This document shows positions 23,911 through 43,956 of a stretch of DNA of 64,000 bases, piece after piece. The notes below the pieces were generated by a model that did not search any database, was not told the DNA's origin, and saw nothing but the letters and a program-made list of their open reading frames with translations. How positions within the stretch are numbered: the stretch's first letter is position 1; every line of letters begins with the position of its first letter. Source of the DNA: Rhizomicrobium sp. (lineage in GTDB: Bacteria; Pseudomonadota; Alphaproteobacteria; Micropepsales; Micropepsaceae); contig JBBCGL010000001.1 of NCBI GenBank assembly GCA_037200385.1, positions 4,479,418 to 4,543,417 on the forward strand. Direction: 5' to 3'. The position numbers and the translations under genes are program-made.

Positions 23911-24713
23911 CGCCAGGCCATCGTGAGATAGGGCTTCGTCGCGTCGCCGGTGAATTGCACGGTTGCGACACGCACGACGCGCGCGGTGCCGACACGAACC
24001 TCGGCGGTGATCGTGAAAGTCGCGCCGGATGCGGCACGGGGTGCCGGTGCAGCGCCCGGCGCCGCCATCCGCGCCAACGCGTCCTCTCGCGCCCGCAACA
24101 GGTCGGCGATGGCGTGCGCGTCCAGGCCGGGTAGCACCTTCAGCACCGCTGGCGGCGCGACGGTCTGGTCCACCGCACCCGTCGTCCCATACACCGTCAG
24201 CAGCGGCGCGATCTTCGCGTAGAGCGCGCGGGTCATGCCGGGAAGTTCGAGCAGCGCGTCGATGGCTCGGAAGGCCAGCGGCGGCGCCGGTCCGCCCGGA
24301 ACCTGCGGCGCGCGGCGCGCGATGACGCGATCGGCGAGCGCCGCCGCCTGGTCGTCCGTCAGGCCGGCCGAAGCGAAGACGCTCCCCAGCAGGACTTTGT
24401 CGGCGAAGTTCAGGTTGATGCGGCCGCTCTCGTCCTGGATCCACAGGCGTGCCGTCACGCCGTCGAAGCCGGCCGCGGCGGCGGTGCCGTCGACCCGCGG
24501 CTGGCGGCCGCTGCGCCCGTCCATCAGCGACAGGATCGCGCGGCCGACGACCGCGTCCGCAATGCTGCCGGCGCGCGTGGCATTCCAGGCATTGCGGTCG
24601 AGCTGCGCCGAGGTCACCGAGGCCGTCAGCATCGCGGCGGCGATCAGCGACAGGATGGCGATGCCCCACAGGACGGAGACCAGCGCCAGCCCGCGCTGCC
24701 GCCGGCCGGTCAT
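23907..24713 (-). CDS. gspK: Type II secretion minor pseudopilin GspK
   Basis: A 268-residue minor pseudopilin forming the tip complex with GspI and GspJ. The N-terminus has a short positive leader and the prepilin site at RRQRG/LALVSVLWGIAIL; like other GspK it lacks the Glu at mature position 5. The conserved WIQDESGRINLNFAD and LPGMTRALYAKIAPLLTVYG are diagnostic for the GspK globular domain. It is the last gene of the minus-strand gsp operon and overlaps gspD by four bases. Confidence 0.92.
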   Translation of the reverse strand: MTGRRQRGLALVSVLWGIAILSLIAAAMLTASVTSAQLDRNAWNATRAGSIADAVVGRAILSLMDGRSGRQPRVDGTAAAAGFDGVTARLWIQDESGRINLNFADKVLLGSVFASAGLTDDQAAALADRVIARRAPQVPGGPAPPLAFRAIDALLELPGMTRALYAKIAPLLTVYGTTGAVDQTVAPPAVLKVLPGLDAHAIADLLRAREDALARMAAPGAAPAPRAASGATFTITAEVRVGTARVVRVATVQFTGDATKPYLTMAWR

Positions 24714-34619: not shown

Positions 34620-34795
34620 ATTGTGGCCCACAATATTATTTCTCCACTATGAGAACCGCGCGCGAATATTTGGCGATGGACCCCGGCGGAACGAGTAGTT
34701 AACGGCGCAAACCTGTGCTAGACGAACGCCCAATCCGGGGGGATTCCGTTCAAAGCCCCGACATATTCGATGGCACAAGGTGGCATGGCCGCGCT

Positions 34796-35809
34796 CGCGT
34801 GCCTGTGGAGGAGACGAAAATGCTCAAATTCACGAAACTGTCCGGCATGTTCGCGGCGACGCTCGTTGCGCTGATGTGGATCGCTCCGGCGCAGGCGCAG
34901 GCGACGCGCACCTGGATCTCGGGCGTCGGCGACGACGCCAATCCCTGCAGCCGTACGGCACCCTGCAGGACCTTTGCCGGCGCGATCTCCAAGACCGCAG
35001 GCGGCGGCGCGATCGACTGCCTCGATCCGGCTGGCGTCGGTGCCCTCACGGTCACCAAGGCGATCACCCTCGAATGCTCCGAGGGCGCGGGCGAGGCCGG
35101 CATCCTGGTCGCCGGAACCAATGGCGTCACGGTCAACGCCGGCGCCAACGACGTCGTCATCCTGACCGGCCTGCAGATCGACGGCGGCCCGATCGGCTCC
35201 AACTCGCTTGCCGGCGTGAGGTTCATCGCCGGACGGGTGCTGGAAATCCAGAACTGCCAAATCCGCAACTTCACGGGTGGCTCGCCCAACGGCTATGGCG
35301 TTTCCTTCGTGCCGGCCACGGGCGCCACGACGCAGCAGCTGATCATCACCGACACCACCATCACGACCAACGGCTCCGGTACCGGGGCCACGGGAACCGG
35401 CGCTGCGATCAATGTCGCGCCGACGGGCAGCGGCACGGTCAACGTGACGCTCGACCGGGTCGAGGTCGTCAACAACGCGCAAGGCGTGACGATCAACAGC
35501 ACTGGCATGAGCGGCGGCGCGGTCACGGCCACGATCAGCGACAGCACCCTGGCCAGCAGCCAGACCGGCTTGACCGTGGCGGGTACGACCCCCGTGACGG
35601 CCATGCTGATCCGCGACCGGATCTCCAACAATGCCGGCTTCGGCATCATCACGGCCGGTTCGGGCTCTTCGGTGAAGGTGGGCTATTCGACGATCACCGG
35701 GAACGGCACCAGCCTGATCCAGGCCGCCGGCTCGCTGCTGTCCTATGGCAACAACCAGATCGACGGCAACGGCACCAATACCCTGCCGGGAACGACGGCC
35801 ACGCATTAA
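34796..35809 (+). repeat. First unit of a ~1,048-bp tandem duplication
   Basis: The unit includes an 18-base block before the gene (CGCGTGCCTGTGGAGGAG at 34796-34813) and the whole coding region. The second unit begins at 35844. The offset between copies is constant at 1,048 bases. The 3' two thirds (from about 35158) are nearly identical to the other copy, while the 5' third differs at many positions. Confidence 0.9.
34820..35809 (+). CDS. Secreted right-handed beta-helix protein, copy 1
   Basis: A 329-residue exported protein. Signal peptide MLKFTKLSGMFAATLVALMW with cleavage after AQAQA gives a mature start TRTWISGVGDDANPC. Two early cysteine pairs occur in NPCSRTAPC. The rest is a Thr/Asn/Gly-rich pattern of short repeats (ITVNAGANDVVILTGLQIDGG-like, TTITTNGSGTGATG, TLASSQTGLTV), as in parallel right-handed beta-helices. 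No catalytic residues of pectate lyases are evident, so a structural or adhesive role is as likely as an enzymatic one. A GGAGGAG ribosome binding site precedes the ATG. It could be a substrate of the adjacent type II system, but this is conjecture. Confidence 0.8.
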   Translation: MLKFTKLSGMFAATLVALMWIAPAQAQATRTWISGVGDDANPCSRTAPCRTFAGAISKTAGGGAIDCLDPAGVGALTVTKAITLECSEGAGEAGILVAGTNGVTVNAGANDVVILTGLQIDGGPIGSNSLAGVRFIAGRVLEIQNCQIRNFTGGSPNGYGVSFVPATGATTQQLIITDTTITTNGSGTGATGTGAAINVAPTGSGTVNVTLDRVEVVNNAQGVTINSTGMSGGAVTATISDSTLASSQTGLTVAGTTPVTAMLIRDRISNNAGFGIITAGSGSSVKVGYSTITGNGTSLIQAAGSLLSYGNNQIDGNGTNTLPGTTATH

Positions 35810-35843
35810 CTTCGATGGAAATAATGAAATTAAGGCCGCATTT

Positions 35844-36857
35844 CGCGTGCCTGTGGAGGAGGTAAGAATGCTCAAATTCTCGAAACTGACCGGCTTGGCG
35901 GCTGTGGCGCTCGTTGCGCTGGTCTGGGCCGCCCCTGCCCAGGCGCAGGCGACGCGCACCTGGGTGTCGGGCGTCGGCGACGACGTCAATCCCTGCAGCC
36001 GCACCGCACCGTGCAAGACGTTTCCCGGTGCGATCTCCAAGACCGCGCCGGGCGGTTCGATCGATTGCCTCGATCCGGCTGGCTTCGGTGCCCTCACGGT
36101 CACCAAGGCGATCACTCTCGAATGCTCCGAGGGCGCGGGCGAGGGCGGCATCCTGGTCGCCGGAACCAATGGCATCACGGTCAATGCCGGCGCCAACGAC
36201 GTCGTCATCCTGACCGGCCTGCAGATCGACGGCGGCCCGATCGGCTCCAACTCGCTTGCCGGCGTGAGGTTCATCGCCGGACGGGTGCTGGAAATCCAGA
36301 ACTGCCAAATCCGCAACTTCACGGGTGGCTCGCCCAACGGCTATGGCGTTTCCTTCGTGCCGGCCGCGGGTGCCACGACGCAGCAGCTGATCATCACCGA
36401 CACCACCATCACGACCAACGGCTCCGGTACCGGGGCCACGGGAACCGGCGCTGCGATCAATGTCGCGCCGACGGGCAGCGGCACGGTCAACGTGACGCTC
36501 GACCGGGTCGAGGTCGTCAACAACGCGCAAGGCGTGACGATCAACAGCACTGGCATGAGCGGCGGCGCGGTCACGGCCACGATCAGCGACAGCACCCTGG
36601 CCAGCAGCCAGACCGGCTTGACCGTGGCGGGTACGACCCCCGTGACGGCCATGCTGATCCGCGACCGGATCTCCAACAATGCCGGCTTCGGCATCATCAC
36701 GGCCGGTTCGGGCTCTTCGGTGAAGGTGGGCTATTCGACGATCACAGGAAACGGCACCAGCCTGATCCAGGCCGCCGGCTCGCTGCTGTCCTATGGCAAC
36801 AACCAGATCGACGGCAACGGCACCAATACCCTGCCGGGAACGACGGCCACGCACTGA
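35844..36857 (+). repeat. Second unit of the ~1,048-bp tandem duplication
   Basis: Starts with the same 18-base block (35844-35861). From about 36206 to the stop only six base differences from copy 1 are seen by eye over roughly 650 bases; most of these are silent and one changes Thr to Ala. Confidence 0.9.
35868..36857 (+). CDS. Secreted right-handed beta-helix protein, copy 2
   Basis: A 329-residue paralogue of the gene before it, of equal length. The signal peptide differs (MLKFSKLTGLAAVALVALVW), as do about 20 of the first 108 residues, for example ISGVGDDAN versus VSGVGDDVN, but the remaining ~220 residues are the same apart from one Thr/Ala exchange. The 58-base gap between the copies has no terminator, so both may be on one transcript, ended by the strong terminator at 36892. 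The two alternative N-terminal regions may indicate divergence in targeting, or the C-terminal part may have been homogenised by gene conversion. Confidence 0.8.
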   Translation: MLKFSKLTGLAAVALVALVWAAPAQAQATRTWVSGVGDDVNPCSRTAPCKTFPGAISKTAPGGSIDCLDPAGFGALTVTKAITLECSEGAGEGGILVAGTNGITVNAGANDVVILTGLQIDGGPIGSNSLAGVRFIAGRVLEIQNCQIRNFTGGSPNGYGVSFVPAAGATTQQLIITDTTITTNGSGTGATGTGAAINVAPTGSGTVNVTLDRVEVVNNAQGVTINSTGMSGGAVTATISDSTLASSQTGLTVAGTTPVTAMLIRDRISNNAGFGIITAGSGSSVKVGYSTITGNGTSLIQAAGSLLSYGNNQIDGNGTNTLPGTTATH

Positions 36858-36976: not shown

Positions 36977-37004
36977 AAAACCGCGCACAACCGTGCGCGG
37001 TTTT
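36977..37004 (-). terminator. Bidirectional intrinsic terminator downstream of the RiPP precursor
   Basis: Twelve-base stem AAAACCGCGCAC / GTGCGCGGTTTT with loop AACC. On the minus strand it lies 22 bases after the precursor stop and ends with a T run (complement of the A tract 36975-36980), so it most likely ends the K-C-A transcript. It would also work, more weakly, on the plus strand. Confidence 0.85.
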
Positions 37005-37025: not shown

Positions 37026-37172
37026 TTACGAGAAGACGGCGTTGTCCGTAAGATTGAGACCCGTGAGTTCAGCGTCGCGGGCATCGAGCTTGCGCAAGGC
37101 CGGCCGCTGCCATTCCGCACGTGCCGAGGTCGTTTCGACCTGCGCCGTGATGTCGTTGCGATTCTCGCTCAT
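37026..37172 (-). CDS. Lasso-type RiPP precursor peptide (48 residues)
   Basis: A short gene that is easy to miss, read directly from the minus strand: ATG at 37172, TAA at 37026-37028. A GGGAGCAGGGG box lies just upstream. Residues 1-20 are polar (MSENRNDITA, then QVETTSARAE); residues 21-26 are WQRPAL, matching the Y/W-x-x-P-x-L motif bound by lasso recognition elements. Taking W21 as -17, P24 and L26 fall at the canonical -14 and -12, and +1 is Gly38. The segment from there is GLNLTDNAVFS. Its only acidic residue is at position 6, not the usual 7-9, and the helper Thr is at -1, not -2, so the exact core is uncertain. The peptide ends in Ser, the residue phosphorylated in paeninodin-type systems. 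It is the last gene before a terminator. Confidence 0.78.
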   Translation of the reverse strand: MSENRNDITAQVETTSARAEWQRPALRKLDARDAELTGLNLTDNAVFS

Positions 37173-37321
37173 GCGTAGACCCCTGCTCCCAAATTCCAGA
37201 AAACTGGTGAATTTCCGCCTGTAAAGGCTTCATGGTAACTCAGACACTACAGAATAGTTGCTTCTCGCGCAAGCTTTGCGGGCAAAATCATTGTAAAGCA
37301 AGCGCTTGCCCGACAAGGCCG

Positions 37322-39262
37322 TCACGCATTGCTTCCGCTGGCGCGGCGGAGAAAATGACCGCTGGAAATCCCGCGCAACAGCGCCAAACGATACGGGACC
37401 ATCACGTTAACTTTTTCCCATCCGCCCTCCGGCCAGTCCGCCATCAGCTGGCGCAGGCGCTGAAGATCGAGCGCCGTTGCAGCCGGGCCACAGTCCTCAA
37501 GCCGGCCGAGTTCTTCGAGGAGCTTGGGGCGTGCCGCCTCCAGACCCTCATGCCAGTCGACTGCCTGATAGCCGCGGATATGGTCCGTGAGTACCTCCGG
37601 CACCAGCCGCGCGCCAAAGGCGCGGCGCGTGAGAGCCTTCATCTGGCCGTTCGCCAGGAACTGCTCCTCGGGGATATTGAGACTGAACTCCAGCAGCCGG
37701 CGGTCCGCCGTGGGATCGCGCTGGTCGACCGACCATCCTGCGAGCTGCCCCTTGTTGTAGTTGCCCAGATCGACGCGACGCAGCACCCATAACCGCGTTT
37801 CGAATCCGTTCGTCCGGGGCCGGTAGCTCAAGTCGAGGCCGCGTGCGCGGGCCCGCTTTTCGATATCCAGTTCCTCGCGGCGCGCGGCGCTCAGCGCGCT
37901 GTAGACGTCGATGGTCGCATTGCGGTCTTCCAGGACCCTGTTGATCCAGCGGAACAGCGGCGTCGGCGTATAGGGTCCGAACGAGACGTTCAGAACGGCG
38001 AGCCAGCGCAGGTGCCGGCGGCGGACGATGCCGCGGCCTTCCCGCAGCCATTTGACGAGCCGGCCGCGGCGAAGCAGCTCCGGCAGGAGCGTCAGCCCGT
38101 CATAGCTGATGCTCATATTGCCCATCTGGCCGTTCAGCATCACGCGCAGCTTGCGTGCTTTCGCTGCGTCGTTGATCCCGTCCGACCAGACCGCATTGCA
38201 CAGATTGAGGACCGGCCGCTCATAGAGGAAGAAGCTGCGGTCGAGATTGTCGAGCGGCGTGCGTCCCGACGGGCGGATCCGAACATGCTCCATGTTCGGA
38301 TATATCGCGGCGGTGCGCGCCGCGATGGTGCCTTCGTCGCCCAGCCGGCCGCGCGGCGCCTTTCCGTCATAGCCTTCGCGGGGAACGGATGTGTAGGCCA
38401 CGACCCGGCCGCCGCGCTTGGCCTGCTGGATGGCGGCGCTGGTCGCGACGATGGCGCTGTCGAAGCCGGAGCTGAGATGGGCCCCGACCTCGCCGCCCGC
38501 ACCGCGCAGGCGGACGCGCACCGCCTCGTCGAGACGATGGCGCAACTCCTCGGCATAGGCGTCGGCATTCGCGAGATTGACCGGTTTGCGCACGGGCTCC
38601 CAATGCCGGCGGGCGATCAGGCTGGTCGGCGTGATGGTGACGAAACAGCCCGGTTCGACCCGCCGGACGTCCCGGAAATAGGTTTCCGGTCCCGTTTCCG
38701 GCAGGAGCGCGAGCTGCTCCGCGACGCGCTCTTCATCCGGCTGGCGCGGGATTTCGGCCAGCGCGTGGAGGCCCTTGGGCATCGACGCGAACGCGACAAA
38801 GCGGTCGGCACGATGATAGTGCAGGGGCCGGTTGCCGAGCGGGTCGCGGGCCAGCACGAGCTTCTGCTGCGCAAAATCGAACAGGGCGAAGGCATAGTCG
38901 CCGAACAAGCGGTCGAAACAGGTGTCTTCCCAGCGCGCCCACGCCGCCAGCAGGATGGCGGAATCGGCCAGCTCCCGCGCCTGCTCGGGCGCGATGCGGA
39001 GCGCCGCGATCAGCTCGTCCCGGTTGTCGAGCCGGACATCGGCCACCATGGCGAAGCGTCCCTCGCCGCCGCTCAGGGGCTGGTTGTCGTGGACGTCTTC
39101 GGGCAGCGTGCGGAACAGTCGCCGCCCCAGCGCGATAGTGCCCATGTCGGTCTGGGCGCTGTCATCCGGTCCGTAGATCGCCTGTGCCGCCAGCATGTTC
39201 GCGCAGGCGCGCCCGGCGTCCGGCTTGCCGTCGAAATTCCATCTGCCGGCGAGCGCCGTCAT
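37322..39262 (-). CDS. Lasso peptide macrolactam synthetase (asparagine-synthetase-like cyclase)
   Basis: A 646-residue asparagine synthetase B homologue. In lasso systems this enzyme adenylates an Asp/Glu side chain of the core and closes the ring with the N-terminal amine. The N-terminal class II amidotransferase-like domain lacks the catalytic Cys2 (it begins MTALAGRWNF), so it cannot release ammonia from glutamine; this is typical of lasso cyclases and argues against true AsnB. The ATP pyrophosphatase loop is SSGFDSAIVA near 262-271. The C-terminal part is divergent and Arg-rich. It lies one base downstream of the kinase gene and 149 bases upstream of the precursor. Confidence 0.88.
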   Translation of the reverse strand: MTALAGRWNFDGKPDAGRACANMLAAQAIYGPDDSAQTDMGTIALGRRLFRTLPEDVHDNQPLSGGEGRFAMVADVRLDNRDELIAALRIAPEQARELADSAILLAAWARWEDTCFDRLFGDYAFALFDFAQQKLVLARDPLGNRPLHYHRADRFVAFASMPKGLHALAEIPRQPDEERVAEQLALLPETGPETYFRDVRRVEPGCFVTITPTSLIARRHWEPVRKPVNLANADAYAEELRHRLDEAVRVRLRGAGGEVGAHLSSGFDSAIVATSAAIQQAKRGGRVVAYTSVPREGYDGKAPRGRLGDEGTIAARTAAIYPNMEHVRIRPSGRTPLDNLDRSFFLYERPVLNLCNAVWSDGINDAAKARKLRVMLNGQMGNMSISYDGLTLLPELLRRGRLVKWLREGRGIVRRRHLRWLAVLNVSFGPYTPTPLFRWINRVLEDRNATIDVYSALSAARREELDIEKRARARGLDLSYRPRTNGFETRLWVLRRVDLGNYNKGQLAGWSVDQRDPTADRRLLEFSLNIPEEQFLANGQMKALTRRAFGARLVPEVLTDHIRGYQAVDWHEGLEAARPKLLEELGRLEDCGPAATALDLQRLRQLMADWPEGGWEKVNVMVPYRLALLRGISSGHFLRRASGSNA

Positions 39263-39263
39263 G

Positions 39264-40091
39264 TCAGCGGACCGCCGCTTCGACCGCGTCGGCCAGTGCC
39301 TGCACCGGCCGCGAGCGATCGCTTTGCAGGCGCAGGGTCACGCAGGCGGCCGCGATGCGTGCAACGATCCGCACATGCTCGTTCTGCGTCCCCAGCGGCA
39401 CGATGTGACTCGGCCGGTAGGTGTTGCGGCTGACCAGCGCCATCTTGTCGCCGGCCGACAAAGGGCTGCCCGTGGCGTCGGCGGCAAGTTCCAGGATCGT
39501 TCCGAGCCGGATGGGTTCATCGCGCGATGCGACGTGGATGTAGAACTTTTCCATATCTTTCATCACCGGTTCCAGCGCCGCGGTGTCGATGCCGGCGGCT
39601 TCACAGGCGTCCTTCCACAATTTGATGCTGTCGCGGCTCGGCCAGGCGAGCGGATGATCGCCGTTCCAGGTGACGCGCGTGGTGTCGTCGGCCACCAACG
39701 TCCAGCCGCGCCGGCTGAGTTCCGCCGCCAGCGTCGACTTGCCGGCGCCCGAATGGCCGCAGATCGCGAGCGCACGATCGCCGCCCGGCGGAACCAGCGT
39801 GGCCGCATGCAGCGGAAGCTCGCCGCGCTGATGGATCAGGGCGCCGCGCGCCGTGCCGTGCAGAAACAGCGCGATCGCACCGCTGTCCGCGTCGTCGTCA
39901 TGCGCGAACTCGATGACCGCGCCGTCCCGCGCCAGGAATCTTCCGATGCCGGGATAGACCAGCAGGAGCTGGCCCGGCTTGGCCTGCATCTGCGGACCGG
40001 CGGGCGCGCTGCCCGGCAGATCTGCCGGGAGCGCGTCGACGCGCCGGATGACGGCGCCGGGGATGCCTGGGACAGGCTTTTGGGGACTCAT
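39264..40091 (-). CDS. HprK-like kinase of a lasso peptide cluster
   Basis: A 275-residue protein related to the C-terminal domain of HPr kinase. The P-loop is CGHSGAGKSTLAAELSRRG near 110-128, followed by LVADDTTRV, the Asp-rich loop used by HprK. In paeninodin-type lasso clusters a kinase of this family phosphorylates the side chain of the C-terminal serine of the precursor; here the precursor ends in Ser. There is no HPr or PTS gene nearby. The ATG at 40091 is divergent from the PqqD-like gene (119-base shared promoter gap). Confidence 0.82.
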   Translation of the reverse strand: MSPQKPVPGIPGAVIRRVDALPADLPGSAPAGPQMQAKPGQLLLVYPGIGRFLARDGAVIEFAHDDDADSGAIALFLHGTARGALIHQRGELPLHAATLVPPGGDRALAICGHSGAGKSTLAAELSRRGWTLVADDTTRVTWNGDHPLAWPSRDSIKLWKDACEAAGIDTAALEPVMKDMEKFYIHVASRDEPIRLGTILELAADATGSPLSAGDKMALVSRNTYRPSHIVPLGTQNEHVRIVARIAAACVTLRLQSDRSRPVQALADAVEAAVR

Positions 40092-40210
40092 TGGGCTTGC
40101 ATAACGGAGTTGGGCCGGGCAGGGAAGTTGCTGGAGCCGGGTGCTGCAGTTTGCCCGGCAACGGCCTGCGGTATAGGGTCATGCATCCGTTTCGTTTGGA
40201 ACCTTGAACA
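40092..40210. promoter_or_regulatory. Divergent promoter region of the lasso-type cluster
   Basis: A 119-base non-coding gap between the starts of the kinase (minus) and the PqqD-like gene (plus). Both halves of the biosynthetic operon must start transcription from or near here. No confident -35/-10 pair or operator palindrome could be picked out by eye. Confidence 0.4.
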
Positions 40211-40489
40211 ATGTCTTCCGACAGCCTGTACGCGCGAACCAGCGACGTCATCGAAGCCGATGTCGGCGGCGAAGTCGTGCTGTTGCACACCCAGAACTGG
40301 CAATATTTCGAATTCGACAAGGTCGGTGCTGCGATCTGGACCCTGCTGAACACGCCGATCACGCTCGACGGGCTGGTTAACGGCCTCACCGAGCAGTTCG
40401 ACGTCGACCAGGCGCGCTGCCGCGAAGAAACCAAGACCTTTCTCGACGAGATGATCGCACAAGGTCTCGTCACCGTCGGCAATGGCTGA
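40211..40489 (+). CDS. PqqD-like RiPP recognition element (lasso B1)
   Basis: A 92-residue stand-alone PqqD-type protein. This winged-helix fold binds the leader peptide and presents it to the leader protease and cyclase. It begins MSSDSLYARTSDVIEADVGG and shows the family pattern VLLHTQNWQYFEFDKVGAAIW, followed by an acidic helix (EQFDVDQARCREETKTFL) and EMIAQGLVTV. In proteobacterial lasso clusters this domain is often fused to the protease, but here it is separate, as in Gram-positive systems. Its stop overlaps the next gene by eight bases. Confidence 0.88.
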   Translation: MSSDSLYARTSDVIEADVGGEVVLLHTQNWQYFEFDKVGAAIWTLLNTPITLDGLVNGLTEQFDVDQARCREETKTFLDEMIAQGLVTVGNG

Positions 40490-41015
40490 AGCGCGCGAAC
40501 CTGACGTGTCCGCCGCGCAGAAGAGGGAGCCGCGGGCCTTCCCGCTTGCAGCTTGGCGGCCGCGCTTCCTGCGCTGGATGGCGCGCCGCTTCTATCGTCT
40601 GCCGGTCCGCCGCAAATTGCAGGTCCTCGAGGCCGTGATCTGCCTCGCCCTGGCCCGGATCGCGCTCTTTTTCGTGCCCTTCCGCATTCTCGCGGCGCGC
40701 TTTGGCGTCCTCGCCGGCTCGGGCGCGCCAGGCGGCCCGGTGCTCTCCGAAACACAGTGCGCGAAAGCCCGGGAGATCGGCTGGGCCGTGACGCGCGCCG
40801 CGCGCTATACGCCGTTCCGTGCCGTCTGCCTGCCGCAGGCCATCGCGGCAAAGGCGATGCTGAGCCGGCGCGGCATCGGCAGCGTGATGCATTTCGGCGT
40901 CGCCAAAATGGCCGACGCGCCGCTCGCGGCGCATGCCTGGCTCGATGCCGGGCCGGTCGAGGTGACCGGCTTTCCGGTGGGTGAGGGCTTCGTCGAAGTC
41001 GCGCGGTTTCTGTGA
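40482..41015 (+). CDS. Lasso leader peptidase, transglutaminase-like (B2)
   Basis: A 177-residue cysteine protease of the lasso B2 family, which cuts off the leader to free the core N-terminus. The Cys-His-Asp triad is visible: Cys116 in FRAVCLPQAIAAKAML, His151 in AAHAWLDAG and Asp155. A hydrophobic segment at about 50-75 (AVICLALARIALFFVPFRIL) is common in this family and may anchor it to the membrane. It is translationally coupled to both neighbours: the start overlaps the PqqD-like gene, and its TGA overlaps the GTG of the next gene. Confidence 0.9.
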   Translation: MAEAREPDVSAAQKREPRAFPLAAWRPRFLRWMARRFYRLPVRRKLQVLEAVICLALARIALFFVPFRILAARFGVLAGSGAPGGPVLSETQCAKAREIGWAVTRAARYTPFRAVCLPQAIAAKAMLSRRGIGSVMHFGVAKMADAPLAAHAWLDAGPVEVTGFPVGEGFVEVARFL

Positions 41016-42196
41016 ACGCCGCCGCACTGCCGGCCGAGTTCCGCCTCGGCGCCGCGTGCTGTATCTGGCCGCCGGGCGAGCGGCGCAATCGCGCGATCCG
41101 CGCCGCGGCGGCCGGCGCCATCGACTGGGACGCCTTCCTGCGCTTCGTCCGGCGCCAGCGCATCGCCGGGCTTGCCAATGACGGCCTGAAGAGTGCGGAA
41201 ATCGCCGTCCCGCCGGACGCCGCCGCCGCTCTCACGATCGAGGCGGGCGCCATCGCGAAGCAGGCCCTGCAGCTCGCCTCCGAGGCTCTGCGCCTGCAGG
41301 CCGCGTTCGACACGGCCGGAATCCCCGCGCTGTTCGTGAAGGGCAGCGCGCTCGCGGTGCTGGCCTACGGCAATCTCGGCATCAAACACGCCTGGGACAT
41401 CGATCTGCTGGTGACGCCGTCCGATGTCCGCCAGGCCTGCGCCCTGCTCGAAGGCGCGGGCTATACGCGCATCATGCCGCCGGCCAGCTTCGCCGACGAG
41501 CGCTTCCATGCCTGGCTCGAATTCGCGCGCGAAGGCATCTTCCACAATGCGGCACGCCACAGCCATGTCGAGCTGCATTGGCGGCTGTCGGACAACCGCA
41601 CCCAGCTGGCCGACGTCACCGCCCGCTCCCCCGCCAACAGCGTCGCGATTTCGCCGCGCCATCCGCCGCTGCGCACGCTGTGCGACGAGGATCTCTTCGC
41701 CTATCTCTGCCTGCATGGCGCCCATCATGCCTGGGCGCGGATGAAATGGCTGGCCGATCTTGCCGCCTGGTTGTCGGGCAAGCCGCCTGCCGAGATCGCG
41801 CGACTCTATGCGGTCGCCGATGCCCATCGTGCCGGCCGCGCGGCGGCGCAGGCGCTTCTGTTGTGCGCAGATCTGTTCGGCTTGCCGCTGCCCGCGCCGC
41901 TGGCCGAAGAGATGCGGGCCGATCGTGCGACACGCTGGCTCGTGGCGATCGCGCTCGAAGCGATGACCGGCGAGCGGCTGCTGCACAATTTCAAGATCGA
42001 AGGCTCGCATTTCCTGCTGGCGCCCGGCTTCGGCCACTGGCTCGCCGAACTGCAGAGCAAATCGGTCGGCTGGACGGATTTCCAGGCCGTGCAACTGCCG
42101 CGGCCGCTCTACTTCCTCTATCCCATCCTGCGGCTGCCGTCCTGGGTCTGGCGCCGCCTGACCGAGGCCCTCAAGCCGGGTCAGCCGGCCGCCTGA
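41012..42196 (+). CDS. Nucleotidyltransferase-family protein of the lasso-type cluster
   Basis: A 394-residue protein of the NTP_transf_5 group (nucleotidyltransferase fold). The conserved core is ALFVKGSALAVLAYGNLGIK followed by HAWDIDLLVTPSDVRQA near 118-145, in which the DxD (DID) would bind the metal-nucleotide. Such proteins recur in lasso clusters with HprK-like kinases; their reaction there is not established. The GTG start at 41012 overlaps the stop of B2 by four bases. Its 3' end overlaps the convergent ABC gene by 16 bases. Confidence 0.8.
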   Translation: MNAAALPAEFRLGAACCIWPPGERRNRAIRAAAAGAIDWDAFLRFVRRQRIAGLANDGLKSAEIAVPPDAAAALTIEAGAIAKQALQLASEALRLQAAFDTAGIPALFVKGSALAVLAYGNLGIKHAWDIDLLVTPSDVRQACALLEGAGYTRIMPPASFADERFHAWLEFAREGIFHNAARHSHVELHWRLSDNRTQLADVTARSPANSVAISPRHPPLRTLCDEDLFAYLCLHGAHHAWARMKWLADLAAWLSGKPPAEIARLYAVADAHRAGRAAAQALLLCADLFGLPLPAPLAEEMRADRATRWLVAIALEAMTGERLLHNFKIEGSHFLLAPGFGHWLAELQSKSVGWTDFQAVQLPRPLYFLYPILRLPSWVWRRLTEALKPGQPAA

Positions 42197-43956
42197 GCCG
42201 GCACGTCGTCGTGGAGCTCGCCGTTCTCCATCCGCACGACATGGTCGCATAGCGCCAGGCTCTCGGCGCGGTGCGCGATCATCACGATCGTCGGCCGCGG
42301 CGCGGTCGCCAGCAGGCGCTCCAGCAGCGCCCGCTCGCCGGCGATGTCGATGGCATTGGTCGCCTCGTCCATGACCAGCAGCTTGGGCTTGCGCAACAAG
42401 GCCCGCGCCAGCGCGATCCGCTGGCGCTCGCCGCCCGAGACCAGCGTGCCGCGCTCGCCGACCACACCGTCGAGCCCGCCGTCCATCCGCCGCACGATCC
42501 CATCGGCGCCGGCCAGCGTCAGCGCGTCCCACATGTCGCTTTCGCTCGCCTCGGGCCGCGCCCAGAGCAGGTTGCGCCGCACCGTGTCGTGGAAAAGAAA
42601 CGGATCCTGCGAGATGTAGCCGAGCTGCGTGCGCCATGCCGGCAGGGTGGTCTCGTCGAGCACACAGCCGCCTGCCACGACGCGGCCCGACTGTGGCCGA
42701 AGCAATCCCACCAGCAGGTCGGCGAGCGTCGTCTTGCCCGATCCGGAGGCCCCCGCGATGCCGATGAAGCTGCCGGGCGGCAATGTCAGGCTCGCACGCC
42801 GCACGCCGTGCGATTGCGTCCCGTCGGTCTGTGCATGCTGGAAGCTCACGTCTTCCAGCACGATGGGGCCGGCGGGGATCTCCCGCGCCGCGCCGCGCGG
42901 CAGCGTCACGCTATGCAGCTCGGCAAGCAGCTCGGTGATGGATTCATAAGCCGGCAGGCCGTGCGCCAGCTGCTGGAAGCCCTGCTGGATCTGCGCCACC
43001 GGTCCGCTCATGCGCGCGATGACCAGAAGGAACGCGATCAGAACCGGCGCCGCCAGGCCGAATACGCCATAGCCCAAAAGCACCACCACGGCGCCGACGA
43101 TGGCCGACAATGTGGTGAGGGCGATGCGCTGCAGCGTCGCCTGCCGGAAATAGCCGGTCTGGCGGTGGATCAGGCTGCGGATCGTCTCGCGGAATTCCAC
43201 GACGAAGCCGCCTTGCAGATCCTGGCTGACCGCTAGCTTGAGTCCGTTGAGGAACTGCGACGCGGTATCGATCAGCGCCAGATTGGCGCCGCTGACATGA
43301 CGCCCCAGCAGGCGGGCCCGCCGCAGCGCGGGGACCATCGCGATGGCGGTGATCGCCAGCAGCCCGAAGGCGAACAGGGCCAGGCCGGGCGACAGCACGA
43401 ACGCCAGGACGCATTGCGCGATCAGCAGGACGATGGAGATGCCCGCCTGGAGAAGGAATTGCGACATCGTGGCGATGCGCGTGATGTCGTTGCTCAGGAT
43501 GTTGATGATCCTGGCATGCCGAAGGCGCAGGATCTGGTCCCAGCCCGCATTGGCGAGGGCGGCCGCGATCTCGCCGCGCAGATGGCCGATGAATTCGGCC
43601 TGCAGGTTCATCGTCGTGATGTCGCGCAGCGCGATCACGATCCCGCGAATCACCATGATCAGCGCGAATGCCGACAGCATCAGCGCCAGGCGGCCGAACG
43701 GGGTCGTGATGCCGAACACCGCGAAGATGCGGGCCATCGCGTCATGCAGCATGCCGTGGCCGCCGCCGCCGCCCATCACGACGGCCAGAAGCGGGACGAT
43801 GAGGATGATCCCGACGCCCTCGAACAGCGCCCCGGCCGCGATATAGCCGATCGCCAGCAGGCCCCTTCGCCCGGCAAACGCGGCCAAGGTCCGGATGAGC
43901 GACAGGAAGGCGCGGCCGCCGGCGCGGGCCGATGTCGGGTCTGCTTTGTTGGCCAT
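42181..43956 (-). CDS. ABC exporter (membrane-ATPase fusion) of the lasso-type cluster
   Basis: A 591-residue half transporter with six membrane helices, then a nucleotide-binding domain. Walker A is GASGSGKTTLADL near 402, the signature is VSGGERQRIALARAL, and Walker B is LLVMDEATNAID. Lasso D proteins of this type export the mature peptide and give self-protection, which is the likely role here given the neighbours. No peptidase C39 domain is present, in agreement with leader removal by B2. It is convergent with the nucleotidyltransferase gene and is thus expressed separately from the divergent core genes. Confidence 0.85.
   Translation of the reverse strand: MANKADPTSARAGGRAFLSLIRTLAAFAGRRGLLAIGYIAAGALFEGVGIILIVPLLAVVMGGGGGHGMLHDAMARIFAVFGITTPFGRLALMLSAFALIMVIRGIVIALRDITTMNLQAEFIGHLRGEIAAALANAGWDQILRLRHARIINILSNDITRIATMSQFLLQAGISIVLLIAQCVLAFVLSPGLALFAFGLLAITAIAMVPALRRARLLGRHVSGANLALIDTASQFLNGLKLAVSQDLQGGFVVEFRETIRSLIHRQTGYFRQATLQRIALTTLSAIVGAVVVLLGYGVFGLAAPVLIAFLLVIARMSGPVAQIQQGFQQLAHGLPAYESITELLAELHSVTLPRGAAREIPAGPIVLEDVSFQHAQTDGTQSHGVRRASLTLPPGSFIGIAGASGSGKTTLADLLVGLLRPQSGRVVAGGCVLDETTLPAWRTQLGYISQDPFLFHDTVRRNLLWARPEASESDMWDALTLAGADGIVRRMDGGLDGVVGERGTLVSGGERQRIALARALLRKPKLLVMDEATNAIDIAGERALLERLLATAPRPTIVMIAHRAESLALCDHVVRMENGELHDDVPAQAAG

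Follow-up and report, generated by a model that had tools for sequence, protein, structure and literature searches.

The 64,000-nucleotide stretch of Rhizomicrobium sp. analysed here (contig JBBCGL010000001.1, positions 4,479,418 to 4,543,417 of the forward strand), referred to below as the window, contains a gene cluster for a kinase-modified lasso peptide. The best explanation, to which a probability of roughly 0.7 is given, is that the genes form a full phospho-lasso set of the paeninodin/Bsf kind, within a system in which many precursors encoded outside the cluster are served in trans by a small number of enzymes. The genes, the pattern and scatter of the precursors, their co-occurrence with the kinase (K) and the leader peptidase (B2), and the conservation of sites were observed in these genomes, and the processing of the peptides, their topology, and the pairing of enzymes with precursors are predicted. 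The cluster by itself is not new.

The lasso-type cluster of the window

The first-pass annotation, made from the sequence alone, had proposed a lasso-type cluster with a kinase and a linked precursor, and this proposal is supported, with all seven open reading frames (ORFs; C, K, B1, B2, N, D, and A) present where it had placed them. The precursor gene A (37026..37172, minus strand) encodes 48 amino acids, and its translation, aligned with 48 further precursors, is divided into a leader of residues 1–35, with W21xxP24xL26, Ala34 (position −2), and Glu35 (−1), and a proposed core of 13 residues, LTGLNLTDNAVFS, with a predicted ring between Leu1 and Asp8, and a C-terminal Ser. Precursor A has no match to an NCBIfam or Pfam family at E ≤ 1. 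A loose precursor pattern fits two of the 647 window ORFs of at least 36 codons, and A alone of these also has the final Ser.

The lasso-type macrolactam cyclase C (37322..39262, minus strand; 646 amino acids) begins MTALAG, and is thus without Cys2, as initially noticed. The HprK-like peptide kinase K (39264..40091, minus strand; 275 amino acids) has H95, a P-loop from residue 112, K118, and D135/D136, and lasso kinases carry a His-Lys-Asp-Asp motif (PMC9266682). These residues, together with the Ser end of A, are consistent with the kinase of a paeninodin-type phospho-lasso pathway. The scores of the HprK models are weak (Hpr_kinase_C reaches only 28.3 bits against a cut-off of 33.3), as are the HprK matches of K in a search of PDB sequences.

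On the plus strand, the predicted leader-binding protein B1 (40211..40489; 92 amino acids), a recognition element (RRE), is PqqD-like, with 61 bits for PF05402 (cut-off 23.4), above the threshold, and 70.6 bits for NF033536 (cut-off 80), below it. Its best PDB match is chain B of 9x90, the PbaA/PbaB1 complex (E 7e-13), and the family and PDB matches together point to an RRE leader-binding protein. The transglutaminase-like leader peptidase B2 (40482..41015; 177 amino acids), in which Cys116 and His151 stand at the residues first assigned to them, matches PF13471 and is recognised as a lasso B2 by NF033537 (89 bits, cut-off 33). The NTP_transf_5 protein N (41012..42196; 394 amino acids) scores 174 bits with PF14907 in the Pfam scan, and its family is homologous to PsmN and BsfN by annotation, while the ABC exporter D (42181..43956, minus strand; 591 amino acids) matches PF00664 and PF00005, which bears out the nucleotidyltransferase-fold protein and the exporter of the initial reading. 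The search of PDB sequences at E ≤ 0.1 recovered no match for either B2 or N. Among the loci of this genome that were compared, the window is the only one with the complete set, including adjoining N and D.

The division of the region into three transcripts, as first suggested, holds for the layout of the strands. The minus-strand C and K genes are separated by 1 base, with the start of A 149 bases downstream of C, while the plus-strand B1, B2, and N genes overlap by 8 and 4 bases, and D, on the minus strand, is convergent with N, with an overlap of 16 bases. The transcripts themselves are a reading of strand and spacing: a scan of the cluster region found no sigma-70-type promoter, and the terminator-like hairpins, one of which lies behind A (36984..36999, minus strand), number six in the region against 4.5 in the shuffled sequences, which is not above the shuffled background for the whole region.

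The interpretation of C as a housekeeping asparagine synthetase is rejected on two lines of evidence. The protein scores 279 bits with NF033535 (cut-off 525) against 158 bits with TIGR01536 (cut-off 267), both below the respective cut-offs, and the NF033535 score exceeds that of TIGR01536 in eight of the nine proteins of this genome that were scanned, with the asparagine synthetase AsnB (L248) showing the reverse. In a tree of 32 rows, the root of which was drawn at the midpoint, C groups with the cluster-borne cyclases (the nearest being L086, L024, and L087), and not with the housekeeping enzyme, AsnB of the same genome occupying a long outer branch. This phylogeny had been put forward as a check on the initial reading, which its outcome does not refute. 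The cyclase is thus distinct from AsnB, as in lasso clusters, though it falls below the curated NF033535 cut-off.

A precursor family scattered over the genome

The search for precursors was seeded with the 48 residues of A, and the first search matched places far from the cluster genes that share W..P, A..A[EQ], D, and a final Ser. Profiles A1 (16 rows), A2 (23), and A3 (49) were then derived from the aligned ORFs. Each genome search scored a subset of the first-look candidates (111 per genome for the genus, and 19 for the class sample), which makes the counts minimum values, and little weight can be placed on absences in the class sample. In the genome of the window (G000), the hidden Markov model (HMM) A3 recovers at least 15 precursor places at E ≤ 1e-3, all with E ≤ 2.1e-5, of which 13 lie 22–678 kb from the nearest of the eight lasso-type cyclases, five full-length K genes, and two B2 genes that were listed. 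The other two are A itself and a gene at 23969, which lies beside B1 and C. The cluster HMMs, applied to the 11 stretches that contain the 13 scattered genes and approximately 4–5 kb to either side, detected no C, K, B1, B2, or N, and one partial ABC match. The 10 neighbours of five of these genes, examined with Pfam, comprise trigger factor, PanB, ribosomal proteins L9 and S20, DnaA, SelO, YkuD, MFS, and GNAT proteins, and one protein without a family.

A similar scatter is found in other genomes. At E ≤ 0.01, at least 17 places were recovered in the genus mate G035, and at least 12 in G029, while A3 finds three places each in G026 and G066, and two each in G030, G031, and G067, as lower bounds. 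For 16 of the 17 places in G035, the 1–5 kb fetched on each side revealed none of C, K, B1, B2, and N, the one exception being C8:134179, which has a K gene nearby. In G183, which belongs to another family, four precursor places are spread over three contigs, and the genome has three B2 genes; at least 250 kb lies between any B2 gene and any precursor that share a contig. One of the precursors has a B1-like gene nearby.

The family shares W(−15)xxP(−12)xL(−10), Ala or Ser at −2, and a core of 13–16 residues that ends in Ser and has Asp or Glu as its eighth or ninth residue. In the 49 compiled precursors, numbered from the Trp as position 1, Pro is present at position 4 in all 49 and Trp at position 1 in 48, while position 14 (−2) is Ala or Ser in 47 (36 Ala, 11 Ser, one Thr, and one Ile), and position 15 (−1) is Glu in 35. 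An acidic residue is found at core position 8 in 38 of the 49, and at positions 7–9 in 47, and the core has 14 residues in 27. The final Ser is found in 49 of 49, a count that is in part selected, given that the ORF listing was restricted to Ser/Thr ends (as was that for L230-L236), and the held-out hits are fairer in this respect: of the 16 at E ≤ 1e-3 outside A3, 14 end in Ser and carry the acid (Asp or Glu) at core position 8 or 9, with two of these (G000:23969 and G066:932828) having near relatives in A3. Weak hits without a precursor-like ORF were left out of the 49 (for example, L084, L085, L090, L092, L096, L110, L112, and L114-L121), as was, owing to the restricted listing, L149 (G026:C31, E 1.6e-4), which was scored among the held-out hits as the failure L200. 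The pattern matched twice in 10 × 313,521 bases of Markov-1 DNA, and not once in reversed DNA, against 13 matches in the real stretches, which had been chosen for hits.

The start of the core was placed by comparison with a leader of known structure. In the crystal structure of the paeninodin-like leader PbaA, PbaB1 binds through W-15, P-12, and L-10 (PMC13381572), and the WxxPxL motif of the present family has the same spacing if the core begins at position 16. The W(−15) start is preferred because of this precedent. The canonical W(−17) start was also considered, and rejected, as the cores would then have 11 residues and the acid would fall at position 6, which does not match the ring sizes of 7–9 (PMC10368454), while a start one residue later than that preferred is also possible, with Gly in that position in 19 of the 49. 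If the core of A begins at Leu36, its Asp8 falls within the positions 7–9 of the acidic residue in lasso cores. The Thr typical of position −2 in lasso precursors is replaced by Ala34 in A, and there is a tested precedent for a residue other than Thr in the Ile of BsfA (PMC10368454). When mapped by hand, the pocket residues I44, L65, Y69, V71, I48, F83, Y39, L41, L87, and L92 of PbaB1 correspond to V, L, F, V, I, F, F, F, M, and L in B1 of the window, and the Trp-hydrogen-bonding E75 and Q79 to R and E.

The precursors also co-occur with the enzymes. Within the genus, they are found at E ≤ 1e-3 in eight of the 14 genomes with a full-length K and in none of the 55 without (Fisher p 3.6e-7), and in seven of the 12 with B2 against one of the 57 without (p 5e-6), although the relatedness of the genomes makes these p values overstate independence. 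Genus hits with E of 1e-3 to 0.01 (in G023, G028, G042, G052, G073, and a few further genomes) were kept out of this test; three hits in this band (G035:C8:134179, G035:C2:420664, and G029:C8:131888) look genuine. In the class sample of 387 genomes, seven have precursor hits, 38 have B2, and five have both (5/38 vs. 2/349), the two precursor genomes without B2 being G031 and a false hit in G348.

Some of the sites are conserved. The precursor adjoining rplI occupies the same site in four genomes (G000, G066, G035, and G029), where its neighbours reach 94% identity, and flanking genes are also shared between the G000:909695/909918 pair and G035:43094, and between G029:C11 and G035:C33. Precursors inside the K-B2-A-B1-C clusters of G066 and G067 have exactly the core of G000:23969, TGIQFGPEILILLS, which ties the family directly to lasso enzymes. 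The codons of G000:23969 show 15 synonymous and no non-synonymous differences from the cluster-borne copy in G067, and 11:1 in the comparison with G066, while the two unlinked copies in G030 have 12 synonymous and one non-synonymous difference in 24 codons, and the ADHG pair has 5:2.

Proposed processing and competing explanations

In the proposed route, B1 would bind the WxxPxL leader of any precursor of the family, as suggested by its fold, its pocket residues, and the motif, K, by comparison with SyanK and PadeK, probably phosphorylates the C-terminal Ser, and B2 would cut after Ala/Ser(−2)-Glu(−1). A C protein would join residue 1 to the Asp or Glu at position 8 or 9, to form a lasso with a tail of approximately 5–8 residues, N may add a group such as hexose to the phosphate, as PsmN does (PMC9266682), and D would export the product. 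The unlinked precursors would be served in trans by no more than one or two B2 proteins, together with small numbers of B1, K, and C, a service that is proposed because B2 and the complete gene set are rare, and the precursors are many. The C-terminal-Ser lasso kinases are tolerant of the rest of the peptide (PMC8498205), and in the prochlorosins a single promiscuous enzyme can serve precursor genes dispersed across the genome (PMC10783134). A more detailed version of this scheme, for which the chances fall only slightly short of even, would be a genome-wide system of phospho-lasso synthesis in trans, in which a dozen or more precursors, each in its own niche and possibly under its own control, draw on a common pool of B1, B2, and K, and on several cyclases, with some dedicated partners, to produce minimal lassos of 13–16 residues, with a phosphorylated, and perhaps sugar-capped, Ser as a possible plug.

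The genome of the window has two B2 genes, five full-length K genes, and eight lasso-type cyclases, distributed over about seven loci, and it is quite conceivable, at odds clearly below even, that the pathways run in parallel, with each scattered precursor being served by one of the partial lasso loci, the synteny having been lost, and the window producing only its own peptide. The partial loci (L244, L261, L262, L263, L264, and L260) and the distinct clades of cyclases in the tree are in keeping with this arrangement, but with two B2 genes for 15 precursor places, the removal of the leader by a small, shared pool of B2 is hard to avoid in any case, and G035 has a single B2 hit for its 17 places. 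The scattered precursors also carry the leader pattern of A, and not that of the L022/L264 precursor, which A3 does not find. The products may instead be linear or branched phosphopeptides, similar to those of the LPP clusters, rather than threaded lassos, which appears unlikely. The LPP clusters share K, N, D, and the RRE with the paeninodin clusters (PMC13381572), and the cores of the present family are very short, but the LPP clusters lack a cyclase and B2, and have an SpI-like peptidase and a YxxP leader (PMC13381572), in contrast with the C, B2, and WxxP leader (W21 in A) found here, and the acid at core positions 7–9 in almost all the precursors (47/49). No SpI model is found among the NCBIfam/Pfam hits of the seven cluster proteins, which sets the cluster apart from the LPP type. 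It is far less probable still that the scattered genes are relics or chance ORFs with no product, even though they are short, fast-evolving, and weakly similar outside the pattern, and some have no clear ribosome-binding site, given the low counts in the pattern controls (Markov 2, reversed 0, against 13 in the hit-chosen real stretches), the fit of 14 of the 16 held-out hits, the synteny in four genomes, and the 12:1 ratio of synonymous to non-synonymous differences in the G030 pair.

A number of observations weigh against the preferred reading of a complete phospho-lasso cluster whose kind of enzymes serves unlinked precursors in trans. The eight cyclases and five K genes in about seven loci mean that the window cluster need not serve the scattered precursors. 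Cores of 13–14 residues are very short for a threaded lasso, and a branched, unthreaded ring is possible. Two of the 16 held-out hits fail, as L200 ends in Ala and has its acid at position 11, and L213 is without such an ORF, while two of the 49 precursors (G000:4273438 and G000:3787658) have no acid at core positions 7–9. The core codons of the rplI site are not clearly conserved, with synonymous to non-synonymous ratios of 4:2, 4:4, and 4:5, and, judged by the codons, some copies appear to be under constraint, with the rplI-site cores appearing to drift. In the genome G031, precursors are found together with K, B1, and C, yet B2 gave no hit, so that B2 either is not strictly required there or was missed. 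A promoter motif shared by the scattered genes was also considered, and the expectation-maximization (EM) search of 25 upstream stretches gave no established motif, as the one it recovered beat five simple shuffles at widths of 10 and 16, but not at 28.

The mining of genomes for lasso peptides looks beside the enzymes, and, if the precursors are unlinked, most of such a family will be missed (in the genome of the window, a few would be seen, and 13 missed). If confirmed, the system would be a lasso counterpart of the prochlorosins, with a core-tolerant set of enzymes useful for libraries and for defining the requirements of B1, B2, K, and C, and the short cores would provide a direct test of the minimum size of a threaded lasso. 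The location of the conserved sites beside rplI and other housekeeping genes, and not in mobile islands, hints at a physiological role, as a signal or internal regulator, rather than that of a single antibiotic.

Related systems and neighbouring genes

The pairing of a kinase with a nucleotidyltransferase had initially been regarded as a feature mainly of the Bacillales, a view that is not supported, nor is the locus supported as the first to combine the two layouts. All seven kinds of gene (A, B1, B2, C, D, K, and N) are present in the bsf cluster of the deltaproteobacterium Bradymonas sediminis (PMC10368454). SyanK, a lasso kinase by which the C-terminal Ser is (poly)phosphorylated, comes from the alphaproteobacterium Sphingobium yanoikuyae (PMC9266682, PMC8498205), and the C-K / B1-B2-N / D layout recurs in G035 (L024), where the place of the precursor falls beyond the end of the contig. 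The bsf cluster resembles that of the window in its seven kinds of gene and in a leader residue other than Thr at −2, but BsfK acts on Ser3, and BsfA ends in Asp and uses Y-17 (PMC10368454), in contrast with the W-15 and Ser end found here; the extracts of this paper do not mention unlinked precursors. The SyanA/SyanK pair shares with the present system a lasso kinase in an alphaproteobacterium and a C-terminal Ser target (PMC9266682, PMC8498205).

The similarity to paeninodin and PbaA includes the WxxPxL motif at −15/−12/−10, separate B1 and B2 proteins, a C-terminal-Ser kinase, and an NTP transferase (PMC13381572, PMC9266682, PMC8498205), whereas the paeninodin-type systems have precursors inside the cluster and are described as restricted to the Bacillota (PMC13381572). 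The window cluster was not filed as paeninodin because the RRE clade of the latter is called Bacillota-restricted (PMC13381572). Lasso precursors reported earlier have Thr at −2 (PMC10368454), where the present family has Ala or Ser. The prochlorosins and synechococsins offer a parallel for many scattered precursors with one recognisable leader and few promiscuous enzymes, the latter being presumed here, but the prochlorosins are lanthipeptides with Nif11 leaders and a ProcM-type synthetase (PMC10783134), as opposed to the multi-enzyme lasso route and the about 12–17 precursors of the present system. Caulosegnins I–III likewise combine several lasso precursors with one set of enzymes, with the difference that the three precursors lie inside a single cluster (PMC13352647). 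In the open-licence literature of PubMed Central, a scope that leaves most subscription papers outside, no report of genome-scattered lasso precursors was found.

The other lasso loci of the genome of the window are incomplete, having a cyclase with or without K and B1, and no B2: A-B1-C at L244, B1-C at L261, K and C at L262, B1, K, and C at L263, A-C plus K and B1 at L264, and C at L260. Nine of the 13 TIGR01536 matches were used as cyclases, the other four (L255, L258, L259, and one lacking a locus) being set aside, as were a partial K at 1835809 and a P-loop-only match at 1206930 in the case of K. The absence of a precursor at the corresponding position in homologous clusters had been named as evidence that would count against the initial reading, and it was encountered in part, as two local ORF scans found no convincing precursor beside several related enzyme loci; these loci may lack one because many precursors lie elsewhere in the genome. 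A more distant set of genes is present in a Roseiarcaceae genome (L043), in which K is 58% identical in the alignment of 12 kinases. The genome G031, which is nearly complete, has a lasso locus (L049) containing C, B1, and K, with precursors both next to these genes and elsewhere, and its cyclase lies on a long branch. Near the K-B2 locus of G029, a precursor-like ORF (L041:7505-7666; WPKPHV...GPDGFSGVS) has Thr at −2. In the Bacteroidota, Emticicia sp. 21SJ11W-3 has two places (L160 and L156) where short WxxP ORFs with a Ser end form tandem runs, with weak profile scores, and a K-B1-C locus (L050); these runs are only a hint that the scatter is not confined to the Alphaproteobacteria.

Adjoining precursor A in the window, two plus-strand ORFs (34715-35809, 364 amino acids; 35745-36857, 370 amino acids) share near-identical long stretches, which represent a tandem duplication. 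Beside the scattered precursors, six of the 33 loci compared, three of them the rplI site, have an adjoining protein of approximately 420–480 amino acids (longer in two gene calls), 34–65% identical among themselves, with no Pfam or NCBIfam match where scanned. The genes of this TPR plus alpha/beta-hydrolase-like family (L080:3631-5055, L083:3513-4967, L164:4994-6256, L168:4419-6611, L172:4729-6882, and L174:4804-6183) are mostly tail to tail with the precursors. The structural model of the protein (pLDDT 83.4, pTM 0.82) predicts one half built of helical repeats and another of the alpha/beta type, and a Foldseek search with it recovered TPR glycosyltransferases and serine esterases (E ~1e-5 to 1e-3), with low whole-chain TM scores. 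The family has an invariant Ser295 in a GxSxxG turn, with the invariant Asp375 and His399 as candidates. A second type, a TPR plus 2-oxoglutarate (2OG)-Fe(II) oxygenase-like protein, is encoded in the same direction and directly downstream of the precursors G000:909695 (L176:3491-4651; PF13759) and G035:43094 (L167:3358-4614; weak TIGR02466). Both the TPR-hydrolase and the 2OG oxygenase may be enzymes of tailoring or breakdown.

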